From an uncultured beta proteobacterium (GTDB lineage Bacteria > Pseudomonadota > Gammaproteobacteria > Burkholderiales > Burkholderiaceae_C), in NCBI GenBank assembly GCA_903873485.1, contig CAIQOO010000175.1:1-64000 (forward strand): a stretch of 64,000 nt of DNA, written 5' to 3'. Below the pieces are notes generated by a model. That model was not told the origin of the DNA, did not search any database, and saw nothing but the letters and a program-made list of their open reading frames with translations. A program made the position numbers and the translations under genes. Below are positions 31,509 through 39,451 of this stretch, in pieces (position 1 is the first letter of the stretch; every line of letters starts with the position of its first letter).

Positions 31509-32156
31509 ATGCCCAGTTTCAGACACCCTCTGTATCACCCGGATGTCGGCCAGCACCCGCTGCCCGACGATGCGCGGGAAATCGCCGCAGTATTGCAAGC
31601 AACCCGGCGCTGCTATCTGGCCCACCCCTATTTTCTGGCCCGTTACGGCCAGCGCGGCATGGCTTTTGCCAATTCGGACGGGGGTTATCTTGCCAGCCTG
31701 ACTGGCAGCGGGCAGCAGCAGGTGGATGAACAGGTGTTTTGGCTCGCTGGCGTGCTGGCAGCGCGTGGCATGCCGCGCTGGTTGATGGAGCAGCATCTGG
31801 AACTGCTTTGCGACGAGTTGTGCCAAGCCGTGCCGGATCAACCCCGCCGTTTTGGCAAGCTGCAACAGGCCGCGCAGCAACTGCGGCTGGCGCGCCTGGC
31901 CTGGATTGACCAGCGCCAGTTCGATGCCCTGGCGGCGGCATTCGAGTCGGCCGCCGGTGACGGGTTGCCAAATGCGGGCGGCCTGCTGGTTTCTGCGGTT
32001 TGTGACGACTGCTGCGAATTGCCCGAAGCGCTGCCCAGCCTGACCCGGTGGCTGGCTGACAGCGGGCGCTTTTCTGTCAGTTGGTGCGCCGCAGTTGCCA
32101 GCACCGTTGCACAGGCGCGTGCGCTGGCCGGCGCATCATGCCGGGACAAGCCATGA
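31509..32156 (+). CDS. Unknown protein, first gene of the B12/c-di-GMP operon
   Basis: 215 residues, mostly helical by composition, no signal peptide and no membrane segment. Conserved-looking blocks are LAHPYFLARYGQRGMAFANSD and WLAGVLAARGMPRWLMEQHL; the C-terminal part has VCDDCCELPEA. I do not recognise a family. The stop overlaps the start of the cobalamin-binding gene (ATGA), so the two are translationally coupled, which suggests partner proteins. ATG at 31509 was chosen; an upstream in-frame start at 31467 is possible. Confidence 0.75.
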   Translation: MPSFRHPLYHPDVGQHPLPDDAREIAAVLQATRRCYLAHPYFLARYGQRGMAFANSDGGYLASLTGSGQQQVDEQVFWLAGVLAARGMPRWLMEQHLELLCDELCQAVPDQPRRFGKLQQAAQQLRLARLAWIDQRQFDALAAAFESAAGDGLPNAGGLLVSAVCDDCCELPEALPSLTRWLADSGRFSVSWCAAVASTVAQARALAGASCRDKP

Positions 32157-32821
32157 CCGCTGCCGCACCGATCAGCGAAGCCTGCTACCAGCGCTACCTT
32201 GCGGCCCTGCTGGCTGGTGACAGGCCTGGCTGCGCCGACCTGCTGCAAGGTCAACTGGCTGCCGGGGTGCCCCTCAAGCAGATTTACCTCGACCTGATGC
32301 AGCGTGCCATGTACGAGATTGGCACGCTGTGGGAGCGCAACCTGGTGTCGGTGGCTACCGAACATCTGGCATCGGCCACCACCGAGGTGCTGCTGGCGCT
32401 GTTGTACCCCAGGCTGTTTTCCCAGGCGCACAAAGACCGGCGCGCCCTGATTGCCTGTGTGCCGCAGGAATACCACCAGATTGGTGCCCGCATGGTGGCT
32501 GACTTCTTTGAACTGCATGGCTGGCACGGCTTCTCGCTGGGTGCCAATACGCCCAGCGCTGATCTGTTGCGCAGCATTGCCCTGCATGATCCGGATGTGG
32601 TGGGCCTGTCGATGAGCCTGCTGTTTCACCGTGCGCAGCTCGAAGCCATGATTGAGTCGGTCAGCAACGCCTATCCGGCGCTGGACCTGTTGCTGGGTGG
32701 GCGCGCCTTTCAGGGCGATGGTGCCGGGTGCCAAGCCTGGCAGGAACTCACAGCCGCCTATCCGCGACTGCGCTATTTTGCGTCGCTCAACGAGCTTGAG
32801 GAGTACCTGTCAGGTGACTGA
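32153..32821 (+). CDS. Stand-alone CarH-type cobalamin-binding (probable light-sensing) domain protein
   Basis: 222 residues. A helical bundle (about 1-85) contains GTLWERNLVSVATEH, in which Trp60 is followed after nine residues by Glu70-His71. This is the Wx9EH motif that caps adenosylcobalamin in CarH photoreceptors. A Rossmann B12-binding domain follows with ExHxxG (EYHQIG, His108 as likely lower ligand), GLSMSLLFH and LLLGGRAF. There is no MerR DNA-binding domain, so it must act through a protein partner, as AerR-type proteins do. It overlaps both neighbours. I infer that it passes a light or B12 signal to the PAS-GGDEF-EAL protein. Confidence 0.85.
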   Translation: MTAAAPISEACYQRYLAALLAGDRPGCADLLQGQLAAGVPLKQIYLDLMQRAMYEIGTLWERNLVSVATEHLASATTEVLLALLYPRLFSQAHKDRRALIACVPQEYHQIGARMVADFFELHGWHGFSLGANTPSADLLRSIALHDPDVVGLSMSLLFHRAQLEAMIESVSNAYPALDLLLGGRAFQGDGAGCQAWQELTAAYPRLRYFASLNELEEYLSGD

Positions 32822-35800
32822 TGCCGCCACTGCAAAGCTGGACCGGCTCGGTGACATCGATGCCATCATCTGGCATGAGGTGCCCTTGGTGCTGCTGCGG
32901 CTGGATGGTGCTGGCACGGTGGTCGATTGCAACCTTTATGCCCGGCAGCTCAGCGGTCGCGACCTGACCGGCATCGCGCTGAACCAGTTGGTGCTCTCGT
33001 TCGGCCCGACACCGGTGCTGCAGGATGTTCACGCATTGACTGGCAGCGATGTTCCGGTACGTCTTCATCTGGCAACCGGGGCCGGTTTGCCGTGTTGCCT
33101 GCTGTTTCGGTTTGTCCAGACTGCGGCGCATGAGGTGCTGGCGATCGGCTGGCACGACATGCCGGAACTGCTGGGTTTGCAGCAACAACTGATCAACCTG
33201 AACAACGAACTCAGCAACACCAGCCGAGCCGCGATGAAGGATTCGCGCTTCCAGATCGACCGCCAGACGCAAGACCAGCGGCGCATCCTGGAGGCCGCTG
33301 GCGAAGGCATTCTGGGTCTGAATGCACAGGGCCTTTTTTCGCTGGTCAATCCGGCTGCGGCTGCCCTGCTGGGTTATGCCGTGGACGAACTGATCGGCCA
33401 GCCGGGCAGCGTGATCTGGCGAAACCTGGCCAAGGACAGGGCAGAGTCGGTCGCGCCGATTTCCCCGATACGGCAAACTCTGGACGCAGGCGTTTTCCAT
33501 ACCGACCAAAGTGCCAACTTCTGGCGCCAGGACGGCAGCGTTTTTCCGGTGACATTCACCGCCAGGCCCATCACCGAGCATCGCCGTGTGCTCGGTGCCG
33601 TGGTGACCTTTGTTGACGTATCAGAGCGTCTGCGCATTGAGCAGGCGCTGCAAGCCAGCGAGCGGCGCTACCGCCAGCTCTTTCTGGAAAGCCCGCAGCC
33701 GATGTGGCTGTTTGATGATGCCACCCTGCGCTTCCTGGATGTGAACCACTCGGCGATCCGGCATTACGGTTACAGCGCCGACGAGTTTCGCCAGATGACC
33801 CTCAAGGACATTCACCAAGCCGCCGATGTGCCGCACTTGCAGCAGGCTCTGGCGACCTCGCCGTCCAGGGTCGCGGCGGGTGAATTTCGTCATCAAAGGA
33901 AAAATGGCGAGGTCATCGATGTGCTGGTGTGGACCGCTCCCACCGAAGAAGATGGCCAGCCGCGCCGCATCGTGGTCGTCAACGACATCACGCAGCGCAA
34001 ACGCGCTGAAATGGCGCTTCAGGAAAGCGAGCAGCACTTCCGCACCCTGGCCAACACCGGCTCCATGCTGATCTGGACTGCCGGGCTGGACAAGCTGTGC
34101 AATTACTTCAACGAGCCCTGGCTGCGCTTTACCGGGCGCACACTGCAGCAGGAAATCGGCAACGGCTGGACCGAGGGGGTTCATCCGGATGACTTCGAGC
34201 GCTGTCTTGACACCTATGTGCGCGCCTTCGAGCAGCAGCAGACGTTCAGCATGGACTACCGGCTGCGCCATGCCGATGGCAGCTTTCGCTGGATTCGCGA
34301 TGATGGCAACCCGCGCTACAACAGCAGCGGCGATTTTCTTGGCTATATCGGCTATTGCATGGACATCACCGAGCGCAAACTCAATGAAGAGCAATTGCGC
34401 ATCGGGGCTACCACCTTTCAGTCGCAGCAGGGCACGGTTGTCACCGATGCCCATGAGGTCATCATCCGGGCCAACCGGGCTTTCACCGAAACCACCGGCT
34501 ACAGCACCGAAGAAGTGGCCGGCAAAACGCCGCGCGTGCTGTCATCCGGCCGGCACGATGCGGCTTTTTATGCAGCCATGTGGGACAGCATCAAACGCAC
34601 CGGGTCCTGGCAGGGCGAAATCTGGAACCGTCGCAAGAATGGCGAGATCTACCCAGAATGGTTGTGGATCACCGCCGTCAGCGGCCCGGACGGCGCAGTG
34701 ACCCACTATGTCGGCAATTTCATTGACATCACCGAGCGCAAGCTGGCGGCCGAAAAGATCGAGCACATGGCGTTTTACGACGCGCTGACCGACCTGCCCA
34801 ACCGCCGCCTGATGCTCGACCGCCTCGGGCAAGCCCTGGCCAGCAGCGCCCGCAACAAAAAAAATGGCGCGCTGTTGATGATCGATCTGGACAACTTCAA
34901 GTCTCTCAATGACACGCTGGGACATGACGTGGGCGACCAGCTTCTGGTGCAGGTGGCGGCACGCTTGCGCGCCTGCATTCGTGAAGGCGATACGGTGGCG
35001 CGGCTCGGTGGCGACGAATTTGTGGTGGTGCTGGGCAATCTGGGCGAAAGCACGCTGGATGCCGCCACGCAAGCAGAAATGGTCGGCCAAAAAATCCTCG
35101 CGGCCCTCAATCTGCCCTACCAGCTTGGCCACCACAGCCACCACAGCACCCCCAGCATTGGCATCACGCTATTTGCCGATTCGCAAGGCACCGCCGATGA
35201 TGTGATGAAGCTGGCCGATCTGGCGATGTACCAGGCCAAGGCGGCAGGCCGCAATACCTTGCGCTTTTTCAACCAGGAACTGCAGGCGGTGGTGCTGGCC
35301 CAGTCGGCCCTTGAGGCCGACATGCGCGAGGCGCTGGCCAATGGCGGTTTCGAGCTTTATTACCAGGCGCAGATGAGCCACGACGGGCAGGTCAGCGGCG
35401 CCGAAGCCTTGGTGCGCTGGCATCACCCGCAGCGCGGCATGGTGGCGCCAACCGACTTCATTGGTCTGGCCGAAGATACCGGCCTGATCCTGCCGCTGGG
35501 GCGCTGGGTGTTGAACGAGGCCTGTCGGCAACTGGCCTGTTGGGCTACTCAGCCGGACATGCAGGCGCTGTCGGTGGCGGTGAATGTCAGCGCGCACCAA
35601 TTCAAGCAGCCGGACTTTGTGCAGGATGTGTTGCAGGTGCTGGCGCACAACGGCAGCAACCCCAAGCGGCTCAAGCTCGAACTCACCGAGAGTCTGCTGA
35701 TTGCCGATGTGGAAGACACCATCGCCAAAATGCAGGCCCTCAAGTCCTGCGGCATCCGATTTTCACTCGATGACTTTGGCACCGGTTACTCCTCGCTGAG

Positions 35801-36122
35801 CTACCTCAAGCGGCTGCCGCTGGAGCAGTTGAAAATTGACCAGTCGTTTGTCCGCGATGTGCTGACCGACCCGAATGATGCGGCGATTGCCCTGACCATC
35901 TTGGCACTGGGCCGCAGCCTCGGTTTGTCGGTGATTGCCGAGGGAGTGGAAACCACCGGGCAACGGGATTTTCTGGCCGGCAATGGCTGTCATGCCTATC
36001 AGGGCTACCTGTTCAGCCGCCCGCTGCCGGTGGCGGCTTATGAGCAGTTTGTCCGGCAAATCCTTTGTTCGGCAGGCGATCAGGCAAACGGCCCGGCATC
36101 GCTGGGCCTGGCTGGGCGATGA
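32814..36122 (+). CDS. PAS-GGDEF-EAL cyclic-di-GMP turnover protein
   Basis: 1102 residues from a GTG at 32814 (GAGGAG upstream) that overlaps the B12 gene by 8 bases. After a short N-terminal sensor region there are four PAS domains (for example LFLESPQPMWLFDDATL and TVVTDAHEVIIRANRAF). A GGDEF domain follows with intact LGGDEF (about 729-734) and I-site REGD. The EAL domain has the GAEALVRW motif (about 863), VNVSAHQF, ELTESLL, DDFGTGYSSL, LKIDQSF and IAEGVET, so all main phosphodiesterase residues are present. It could both make and break c-di-GMP. No membrane segments are seen. Coupling to the cobalamin protein suggests light or B12 control. Confidence 0.92.
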   Translation: MTDAATAKLDRLGDIDAIIWHEVPLVLLRLDGAGTVVDCNLYARQLSGRDLTGIALNQLVLSFGPTPVLQDVHALTGSDVPVRLHLATGAGLPCCLLFRFVQTAAHEVLAIGWHDMPELLGLQQQLINLNNELSNTSRAAMKDSRFQIDRQTQDQRRILEAAGEGILGLNAQGLFSLVNPAAAALLGYAVDELIGQPGSVIWRNLAKDRAESVAPISPIRQTLDAGVFHTDQSANFWRQDGSVFPVTFTARPITEHRRVLGAVVTFVDVSERLRIEQALQASERRYRQLFLESPQPMWLFDDATLRFLDVNHSAIRHYGYSADEFRQMTLKDIHQAADVPHLQQALATSPSRVAAGEFRHQRKNGEVIDVLVWTAPTEEDGQPRRIVVVNDITQRKRAEMALQESEQHFRTLANTGSMLIWTAGLDKLCNYFNEPWLRFTGRTLQQEIGNGWTEGVHPDDFERCLDTYVRAFEQQQTFSMDYRLRHADGSFRWIRDDGNPRYNSSGDFLGYIGYCMDITERKLNEEQLRIGATTFQSQQGTVVTDAHEVIIRANRAFTETTGYSTEEVAGKTPRVLSSGRHDAAFYAAMWDSIKRTGSWQGEIWNRRKNGEIYPEWLWITAVSGPDGAVTHYVGNFIDITERKLAAEKIEHMAFYDALTDLPNRRLMLDRLGQALASSARNKKNGALLMIDLDNFKSLNDTLGHDVGDQLLVQVAARLRACIREGDTVARLGGDEFVVVLGNLGESTLDAATQAEMVGQKILAALNLPYQLGHHSHHSTPSIGITLFADSQGTADDVMKLADLAMYQAKAAGRNTLRFFNQELQAVVLAQSALEADMREALANGGFELYYQAQMSHDGQVSGAEALVRWHHPQRGMVAPTDFIGLAEDTGLILPLGRWVLNEACRQLACWATQPDMQALSVAVNVSAHQFKQPDFVQDVLQVLAHNGSNPKRLKLELTESLLIADVEDTIAKMQALKSCGIRFSLDDFGTGYSSLSYLKRLPLEQLKIDQSFVRDVLTDPNDAAIALTILALGRSLGLSVIAEGVETTGQRDFLAGNGCHAYQGYLFSRPLPVAAYEQFVRQILCSAGDQANGPASLGLAGR

Positions 36123-36240: not shown

Positions 36241-36373
36241 GGGGATATGATGCGGTGGCCATTGCAATCGGCATTGGTTGCTGGCTGGCGCAGATCATGG
36301 TGATGCTTGTTCCAGATGTTCATCTGGCCAGACTTTTGAATACCACCGCTATTTCACTCAAGGAGATGTATCA

Positions 36374-37126
36374 ATGGAACCCATCACTGACGGCAATCAG
36401 GTTGAAAATACTGTTGAAAATAATTCAATAAATTCAGCAGAATCATTTCTTGATTTTGATGCAAACGGTCACATTAACCTTGACATCAAAACCAATAATA
36501 ATAATTACCAGTTGATACGGTTGCGCGATGACGAGTTTTTCCAGCTTGAGAGGAACACGCTTTCAATTCATGTCGATTATGGCCATTTGATCAATTTATC
36601 GATGGACGAAGATTTGATTTACAGCAGCTTTTCTAGGATGTACGCAGCCTTGACCCATTTGTTTGGCAGCAGTGGCAGGTTGTACGATGATTGGAAAGGT
36701 TCTTTCTCGTTTCCGTTTTTGATCAGATTTAAGAAGAACGGAGAGGAGTTTGGCTATTTGTTGAATATCTTCAACATGCGGTCTGGCATAGAGTTTTGTT
36801 TTTATAAATTGATCTCAGCCAATGATACTCGGTTTGACAGAATAGTGATGCAGAAGCCTTTTGAAGAATTTCCGCAAGATGAAATAAATTACCTTGTCAA
36901 TTATATCGCCGGCTATTGCACTGGTTATTTTAACGAGACTGAAAAATACCATGATGACTGCTTTTTGCTGATCACCGAGTCAAACCTGCTGCTGTCAGGC
37001 TGCCATGACCATGTCTATTTTGATCATTCTTATGAAAGCCCGGAAGAGTTTCAGGCTGCGATGGCTGTGCGGAAACCCCAATGTACGCCGCCACGGCGGT
37101 CTCTACCGGCTGTAGCCGATACCTGA
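36374..37126 (+). CDS. AT-rich orphan gene of unknown function
   Basis: 250 residues from an ATG with a strong AAGGAGAT site. Codon use is clearly AT-rich (runs such as aataataataat), unlike every neighbour, suggesting acquisition by transfer. The protein is acidic with many Asn, Phe and Tyr residues (VDYGHLINLSMDEDLIYSSF; NYLVNYIAGYCTGYFNETEK). It has no signal peptide and no motif I know. The last 20 or so codons (after AAMAVRKPQ) turn GC-rich and may be run-on past a lost stop. Confidence 0.75.
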   Translation: MEPITDGNQVENTVENNSINSAESFLDFDANGHINLDIKTNNNNYQLIRLRDDEFFQLERNTLSIHVDYGHLINLSMDEDLIYSSFSRMYAALTHLFGSSGRLYDDWKGSFSFPFLIRFKKNGEEFGYLLNIFNMRSGIEFCFYKLISANDTRFDRIVMQKPFEEFPQDEINYLVNYIAGYCTGYFNETEKYHDDCFLLITESNLLLSGCHDHVYFDHSYESPEEFQAAMAVRKPQCTPPRRSLPAVADT

Positions 37127-37990: not shown

Positions 37991-38048
37991 TCAGAACCTG
38001 TCGGCAGCCCCGCTACACTCGACAAAATCACAGTAGAAAGTGCACGCA

Positions 38049-38636
38049 ATGGGTATTGAAGACCGCGATGGGTGGCGTGAGGCGCAAAAAGTGCGTTCAC
38101 CCGGCGCACTCTCCCGTGGCCTCAAATGGGCGCCGCTGGGCATTGTGATGTTCTGGCTGGTCGTCATGGGGCTGCTCTATGCGCTGATGACACATTACCT
38201 ACAGCCCCGGCCAGTGCGCATCAGCGCCAACGGTGATCTGGTCATTCCCAGGGCGCGCAACGGACATTTTTATGCGGCGGGGTCGGTCAACGGCAAGCCG
38301 GTCAGCTTCATGGTCGATACCGGAGCGTCAATGGTCACGGTCAGCGAGACGTTCGCCCGGCAGGCCGGCATTGCAGGCGGTGTCGCCACAGTGTTCAAAA
38401 CTGCCAATGGCGATTTGGCCGGGCGCATTGTGGCCGACGTGCCGGTCACGCTCGGGCCGATTCGGGTGTCAGGCGTGCGCCTGGCGGTTGGGCTGGTCGG
38501 CGGTGAGCCTGATGATGCCCTGCTGGGCCAGGGTTTTTTGTCGAAGTTTGAGGTCATCCTGTCCAAAGACCAGATGATTTTGCGGCCCCGCCAGGCCGAC
38601 CCAGGCCTAGCGGGTGCTGCCGGCTATTTGAAATAG
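38049..38636 (+). CDS. Membrane-anchored retropepsin-like aspartic protease (clan AA, TIGR02281 type)
   Basis: 195 residues. An N-terminal cytoplasmic stretch and one membrane segment (LGIVMFWLVVMGLLYALM) are followed by a single-domain aspartyl protease in the periplasm. The catalytic motif is FMVDTGASMVTVS, followed by the flap region and LLGQGFLSKFEVI. Single-lobed retropepsins act as dimers. The substrate is unknown. Its stop lies inside the 3' end of the convergent cysteine-protease gene (13-base overlap). Confidence 0.87.
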   Translation: MGIEDRDGWREAQKVRSPGALSRGLKWAPLGIVMFWLVVMGLLYALMTHYLQPRPVRISANGDLVIPRARNGHFYAAGSVNGKPVSFMVDTGASMVTVSETFARQAGIAGGVATVFKTANGDLAGRIVADVPVTLGPIRVSGVRLAVGLVGGEPDDALLGQGFLSKFEVILSKDQMILRPRQADPGLAGAAGYLK

Positions 38637-39451
38637 CGAATCTGGAAGTAGCTGCCTTCCACCTGGCCAAATGCGCCTTCATATTTGGCAATGAAGACAC
38701 GAAATGACTCCTGGTACTGGCGGCCACCGGCCGGGTCAATGATGTGCATGACGGTGCTGTCAACCGAGCCGTCGCCCGACATCGCCTCGACAATTCTGGA
38801 GTGCAAGCCGGCCCCGGGGCCCAGGCTGTTGAGCGTGCCGACCCAGATCAGCCCCTTGCTCCGAAGCAGGCTGACCCAGCCGGCGATGGTCAGGTTGATC
38901 ATCGGCTGGACTTCCATTTGCGCCGCACTGATGAAGGGGCCAAATTCATCGGATGGAAGGCCCTGGTTGTTATCGACCATGACGCCGTATTTCTCGGCAA
39001 CCGCCGCCGCTGCCGGGCGGATGTCAACCGAGGTTCTGAACTTCCACGAGCGCATCATGGCATGCACGGTGGCCCAGCAGACCATCGAGCTGGGCTGCGC
39101 TAGCACCACGCGCAGGCCCGGCACGGTAAACGGCAGTCCGGACGAAGCTGAACGCGGTAACGGCAACAGGGTGTCAAGCCGGGTCATGGTTTGGGTACCG
39201 ACGACACCGTCGGCGGCAAGGCTGTTTCGGCGTTGAAACGCCCTGACCTGGGTGTCGGTCTCCTGGCCGAATACCCCATCGGGCACGCCAAACCGCCGGG
39301 TTGACAAGGGCATGGCAAAGCCCAGATCGATCAGTCCTTGCTGGACGGCCGCCACGCCGGGGCCGCTGGAGCCGGTTTTCATCGGCGGACTGTTGCTGGC
39401 GGCATTGCGGCACTGTTGTATTGGGGCAAACCGGGGGGAGCTGATGGCCAT
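38624..39451 (-). CDS. Peptidoglycan-binding domain fused to papain-like (AvrRpt2-type) cysteine protease
   Basis: 275 residues. The N-terminal PG_binding_1 domain (about 30-95) has GVFGQETDTQVRAFQRRNSL and GVVGTQTMTRL. The C-terminal half looks like a papain-fold peptidase: Gln119 and Cys125 in QPSSMVCWATVHAMM keep the papain Q-x5-C spacing, a His follows in GLHSRIVEAMSG and an Asp in HIIDPAGG. No signal peptide is visible, so it may leave by a non-Sec route or act in the cytoplasm. GGAGA lies before the ATG. The role is unknown; an effector or bacteriocin-like function is possible. Confidence 0.72.
   Translation of the reverse strand: MAISSPRFAPIQQCRNAASNSPPMKTGSSGPGVAAVQQGLIDLGFAMPLSTRRFGVPDGVFGQETDTQVRAFQRRNSLAADGVVGTQTMTRLDTLLPLPRSASSGLPFTVPGLRVVLAQPSSMVCWATVHAMMRSWKFRTSVDIRPAAAAVAEKYGVMVDNNQGLPSDEFGPFISAAQMEVQPMINLTIAGWVSLLRSKGLIWVGTLNSLGPGAGLHSRIVEAMSGDGSVDSTVMHIIDPAGGRQYQESFRVFIAKYEGAFGQVEGSYFQIRYFK

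Follow-up and report, generated by a model that had tools for sequence, protein, structure and literature searches.

What could a B12-binding protein without a DNA-binding domain act on? The question is raised by three genes (the trio, 31509..36122) in a 64,000-nt stretch of DNA from an uncultured beta proteobacterium (that full stretch is called the window hereafter). On balance we favour the view that the trio is a photocobilin split into two proteins, which acts through a PAS-like input domain on a bifunctional enzyme of cyclic di-GMP (c-di-GMP) metabolism. The folds, motifs, gene linkage and heme oxygenase fusions behind this view were computed, and from them we infer the cofactors, the light response and the protein contact of the trio.

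31509..32156, forward strand: gene 1, ATG start, 215 amino acids, photoglobin/BBAG-2-like protein of the bilin-globin type
32153..32821, forward strand: gene 2, ATG start, 222 amino acids, stand-alone B12-binding protein of the photocobilin type, without a DNA-binding domain
32814..36122, forward strand: gene 3, 1102 amino acids, with a PAS-like input domain, several PAS domains, GGDEF and EAL

Re-reading of the frames confirmed the coordinates given in an earlier note on this DNA, as well as its statement that the gene of the B12 protein overlaps a gene on either side. The overlap of genes 1 and 2 is ATGA. The most likely start of gene 3 is the GTG at 32814; with this start its overlap with gene 2 is GTGACTGA, and GAGGAG lies about 10 bases upstream of that GTG.

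The B12 protein of gene 2

In a Pfam scan up to E 1, gene 2 contains B12-binding_2 (E 8e-15) and B12-binding (E 2e-14) and nothing else; a MerR-type DNA-binding domain is absent. Two motifs lie within it.

32330..32365, forward strand: Wx9EH (W60, E70, H71), by motif and conservation
32468..32485, forward strand: EYHQIG (residues 106-111), in which His108 occupies the place of the lower cobalt ligand

The earlier description of both motifs in a protein free of a DNA-binding domain therefore holds. E106-Y-H108 represents the E/DxH feature, so that gene 2 combines Wx9EH with E/DxH as photocobilins do. W60, E70, H71 and H108 are unchanged in all thirteen aligned B12 sequences, and Wx9EH is found in 16/16 B12 sequences from loci that also hold the domain of gene 1 (the window is counted in both sets); a MerR-type protein at locus L060 lies outside this set of sixteen, yet it also has Wx9EH. 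The string alone is not rare: the stop-free frames of the window, 76,167 residues in total, contain it three times, and when gene 2 was shuffled 20,000 times, it arose in 128 of the products. Therefore the string itself is weak, and it carries weight because of its B12 domain context and its conservation. W60, E70 and H71 correspond to Trp61 and Glu71-His72 of photocobilin, which pack on the adenosyl group (PMC10979010, drawn on here in part); the same source prints the motif as W-(10)x-EH but numbers the residues Trp61, Glu71 and His72, i.e. x9.

The domain had been taken for a CarH-type B12 light sensor. An adenosylcobalamin (AdoCbl)-type sensor domain is retained, but the nearest solved relatives are photocobilins, which give the best PDB sequence matches at 87 bits, compared with 34 bits for CarH. 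It is highly improbable that gene 2 instead serves methyl transfer as a corrinoid protein and lies beside gene 3 by chance. Models of MtgC, MtbC, MetH and MtaC match it weakly, all far under their cut-offs, and methionine synthase entries are among its PDB matches; however, photocobilins are the top matches, none of the nine scanned neighbour proteins is a methyltransferase, and the linkage of B12 genes to effectors with the input domain of gene 3 recurs, as described below. The methyl-transfer assignment was rejected.

The bilin-type globin of gene 1

The product of gene 1 entered the earlier note as an unknown 215-residue protein and a possible third part of the system. From profile alignment and structure comparison of a model, it is a bilin-globin-type protein.

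31563..31892, forward strand: globin domain, residues 19-128, by structural and profile alignment
31899..32153, forward strand: C-terminal helical extension, residues 131-215

Residues 19-128 of the AF2 model (predicted local distance difference test, pLDDT, 95.1) resemble phycobiliproteins and the photocobilin globin in a VIA-align structure comparison. The predicted fold is the phycobiliprotein-like globin fold of photoglobins and BBAG-2 proteins. By hhalign, gene 1 matches the N-terminal globin of Rhodoferax photocobilins with a probability of 93.7 and E 1.8e-7. The positions lining the biliverdin pocket are conserved in the family of gene 1, and Asp57 (31677-31679) aligns with the biliverdin-binding Asp270 of SasPcob when transferred through two alignments. 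Gene 1 has Ala54 in place of the phycobilin cysteine while the pocket Asp57 is retained; it also has RGMP rather than the RGMC of BBAG-2, with P89 in 22/22 sequences. Judging from sequence and model, gene 1 probably holds biliverdin non-covalently. Since gene 1 is of the bilin-globin type, the sensor probably has two chromophores.

The helical C-terminal part (31899-32153) is present family-wide and is without a clear structural relative. An LprI-like identity of gene 1 was rejected, as its Pfam match (E 0.035) falls short of the cut-off.

Linkage of gene 1 to heme oxygenase and B12 genes

Scanned with gene 1 as the only query, 31 stretches contained no relative, and with alignment A1 as the query, 21 relatives were found among 72; at least nine of the 21 are the same contigs as loci from the genome search, and each was counted once. 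The domain of gene 1 is fused to heme oxygenase, which produces biliverdin, in 14 of the 21 related loci. Heme oxygenase, fused or separate, is present in 17 of them and a B12 gene with Wx9EH in 16. In two Rhodoferax bins (L071:4272-6530 and L079:6323-8299), one protein comprises the bilin-type globin, the B12 domain and heme oxygenase; L071 and L072 are truncated by contig ends. In the window genome heme oxygenase is encoded only on another contig, and the B12 gene adjoins gene 1. At the level of the family, the genetic link to heme oxygenase and to a B12 protein that is typical of photoglobins and BBAG-2 is present. Across loci, genes 1 and 2 co-diverge.

Among 398 genomes sampled from the phylum, the family of gene 1 was found in the window's own genome only, a count that is a lower bound because only about seven first-look candidates per genome were scored. 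In a genus-rich set it was found in 9 of 100 genomes. Several matches from other phyla are metagenome bins and may be mis-binned.

Two further arrangements were seen. In a Sterolibacterium bin (L060:5856-8539), a relative of gene 1 lies between a heme oxygenase gene and the MerR-type B12 regulator with Wx9EH; therefore a CarH/LitR-like regulator may be another partner of the globin. By eye, the globin and heme oxygenase pairs at L062:6168-7516 and L063:7001-8253 lie near genes of a single-strand-binding protein and UvrA.

Gene 3 and its input domain

32814..33300, forward strand: G3N, PAS-like N-terminal region common to kinases and cyclases beside B12 photoreceptor genes
34770..35255, forward strand: GGDEF domain with the GGDEF and RxxD sites, by Pfam and motif
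35319..36023, forward strand: EAL domain with its motifs, by Pfam and motif

Gene 3 has several PAS matches in Pfam, and its GGDEF, RxxD and EAL motifs are all there, including the EAL motifs that we take to be catalytic. By its sequence, gene 3 thus appears to be the complete c-di-GMP cyclase/phosphodiesterase that the earlier note had proposed. G3N comprises about the first 165 residues; near a B12 gene it is found again as part of histidine kinases or of a PAS-GGDEF protein. As to whether the order of the three genes is conserved, 12 of the 21 loci, like the window, combine the domain of gene 1 with a B12 gene with Wx9EH and a G3N effector, but three different orders are seen.

A G3N alignment was searched against 89 Rhodoferax-type genomes of the same genus as the window, and all 45 matches were inspected within about 3 kb. 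Of the best 17 matches, 15 directly adjoin a B12 gene with Wx9EH (E up to 1.4e-5, a cut chosen after the result was seen), and 0 of the 28 weaker matches do so. The profile had fourteen rows, five of them from this genus, and these five belong to the set of 15 linked matches. The profile contains none of the remaining ten; all of these come after globin-B12 photocobilin genes, and since they do, one input domain appears from these sequences to serve both split and fused photocobilins. Against the link, a B12 gene is missing at L102 and L104, and L115 adjoins a B12 protein without Wx9EH; for L122, L132 and L115 the G3N match itself was not recovered in the neighbourhood check.

In the genus, globin-B12 photocobilin genes followed by G3N kinases or cyclases are seen at L051, L053-L056, L058, L100, L101, L103 and L105.

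Proposed mechanism

The products of genes 1 and 2 would form one receptor that acts on G3N. In this scheme gene 1 would be a bilin-type globin with non-covalently held biliverdin, and gene 2 an AdoCbl light sensor of the photocobilin/CarH type. In the dark, Trp60 and Glu70-His71 would cover the adenosyl group and His108 would hold the cobalt. The Co-C bond would be broken by green light, or by red light that the biliverdin of gene 1 absorbs, and the assembly of gene 2 would change. The changed complex would then act on G3N at the N-terminus of gene 3, and the balance of that protein would shift between GGDEF (c-di-GMP synthesis) and EAL (breakdown). The heme oxygenase whose gene lies on another contig would supply the biliverdin; in many relatives this enzyme is fused to the domain of gene 1.

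Precedents come from PMC10979010 (in the parts drawn on), where photocobilins show AdoCbl photochemistry with Trp, Glu-His and the lower His, biliverdin adds a red-light response, and photocobilins act on a diguanylate cyclase, also in trans, where the cyclase was activated in a light-dependent manner. Together with the recurrent proximity of B12 genes and G3N effectors, this trans action supports one part of the earlier suggestion that light or B12 status is passed to c-di-GMP metabolism, namely that an AdoCbl-type domain may feed the adjacent c-di-GMP enzyme. BBAG-2 globins are specific for biliverdin (PMC10151467, likewise drawn on in part).

As for cofactor supply, the window genome has a match to the PduO-type adenosyltransferase, none to the CobA type, and none to the photosynthetic reaction-centre family. 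By these matches, the host therefore looks like a non-phototroph that should have AdoCbl at its disposal. The genome also has seven matches to the B12-binding family, and B12 therefore has further uses in the host. Both the missing reaction-centre gene and these other uses of B12 would suit a trio that senses B12, heme/bilin or redox status instead of light, with AdoCbl occupancy and biliverdin level being relayed to c-di-GMP. We regard this as quite unlikely: W60, E70 and H71, kept in 13/13 sequences, match the residues that pack on the adenosyl group in PMC10979010 (as far as drawn on), and the pocket of gene 1 is conserved.

Points that weigh against a split photocobilin

Several results count against the split photocobilin. 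For gene 2, methionine synthase PDB entries (up to 37.9 bits) score slightly above CarH, and the best NCBIfam model is CarH, though far under its cut-off (48 of 400 bits). For the model of gene 1, Foldseek alone gave E-values that were all non-significant (best 0.66); the best structural Z is 12.2, under the caution level of about 13 that the tool sets for helical models; and PDB sequence and profile searches returned no bilin globin, with three chance-level rows at most. The model of a fused relative, with a predicted template modelling score (pTM) of 0.50, says nothing about domain packing. Heme oxygenase is neither fused nor adjacent to gene 1 or its relatives in the window, L059 and L061. 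At L064 and L065, relatives of gene 1 have neither a heme oxygenase nor a B12 gene that was recognised; the gene after gene 1 at L065 resembles heme oxygenase when read by eye, but Pfam gives no match for it, and it was left out of the heme oxygenase count. The gene next to the fusion at L079 encodes a PAS-GGDEF protein without a G3N match, and at L066, which has B12 and a fused globin, G3N was looked for and none was found. On their own, BBAG-2 holoproteins are photoinert (PMC10151467, in part).

Some of the exceptions would fit another scheme, in which gene 3 receives its light signal from the AdoCbl protein of gene 2 alone and gene 1 is a carrier or sink of biliverdin outside light sensing. 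Relatives of gene 1 occur with heme oxygenase but without a B12 gene (L062, L063), B12 occurs with a G3N kinase without gene 1 (L052), and a photocobilin with AdoCbl only is green-light responsive (PMC10979010, in part). However, genes 1 and 2 overlap in the window and co-diverge across loci, and their two domains are one protein in L071 and L079, so that this scheme appears unlikely. The split photocobilin remains the reading that we favour.

Comparison with known systems

Bacteriophytochrome-GGDEF-EAL proteins with bphO combine heme oxygenase, a bilin receptor and c-di-GMP output as is proposed for the trio, but their bilin-binding fold is different and they have no AdoCbl. CarH and LitR share the Wx9EH B12 domain, which serves light sensing in CarH; gene 2 differs from them in lacking the MerR DNA-binding domain and is less similar to them than to photocobilins. 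Like photocobilins (stand-alone SasPcob and the cyclase fusion AbDPcob; PMC10979010, in part), the trio combines a bilin-type globin with a B12 domain in which Wx9EH and [ED]xH are present. It differs in that globin and B12 domain are on separate proteins in the window (they are on one in L071 and L079), in the roughly 85 helical residues that extend the globin at its C-terminus, and in its likely target, a PAS-GGDEF-EAL protein that has a gene of its own and a PAS-like input domain that recurs elsewhere. Since the globin and the B12 domain are on separate genes, the trio "works like" a photocobilin and is no strict member. As in BBAG-2 systems (PMC10151467, in part), the globin gene adjoins a B12 gene and heme oxygenase is in the genome or cluster; unlike them, the family of gene 1 has RGMP instead of RGMC, has relatives fused to heme oxygenase, and is linked to a kinase or c-di-GMP effector.

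Surroundings of the trio

No cobalamin riboswitch was found in the window at the Rfam gathering threshold, since a tRNA is the sole Rfam match. Directly downstream of the trio lies a 257-residue reading frame (36353-37126) without a Pfam match. At 38040-39451, a gene of a retropepsin-like protease is convergent with one for a peptidoglycan-binding and papain-like (Pfam Peptidase_C70) protein.

Implications

Photocobilins, BBAG-2 globins beside B12 genes, and stand-alone photocobilins acting in trans are already known. In the literature searched, parts of which were available to us, we did not find heme oxygenase-globin(-B12) fusions, the PAS-like input domain that the partners share, or a separate GGDEF-EAL output; the photoglobin study of Schneider 2022, which lay outside the search, may overlap with part of this. 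It is about an even chance that the family represents a modular three-protein photoreceptor, in which the globin with its biliverdin and the AdoCbl protein are separate and come together in trans on G3N, G3N carries a kinase, cyclase or GGDEF-EAL output and also serves fused photocobilins, and the globin-heme oxygenase fusions of many relatives load their own chromophore. From the fusions of heme oxygenase, globin and B12 domain one would expect one chain that both produces its bilin and keeps it next to AdoCbl, a design that could be useful in optogenetics. In the parts of the sources drawn on, the function of stand-alone photocobilins is called less clear (PMC10979010) and the functions of BBAG globins are described as not yet known (PMC10151467). 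The recurring gene pairs name likely partners of both, i.e. effectors with one shared PAS-like input domain, and if this is true, the G3N effectors would be the missing partner of stand-alone photocobilins.
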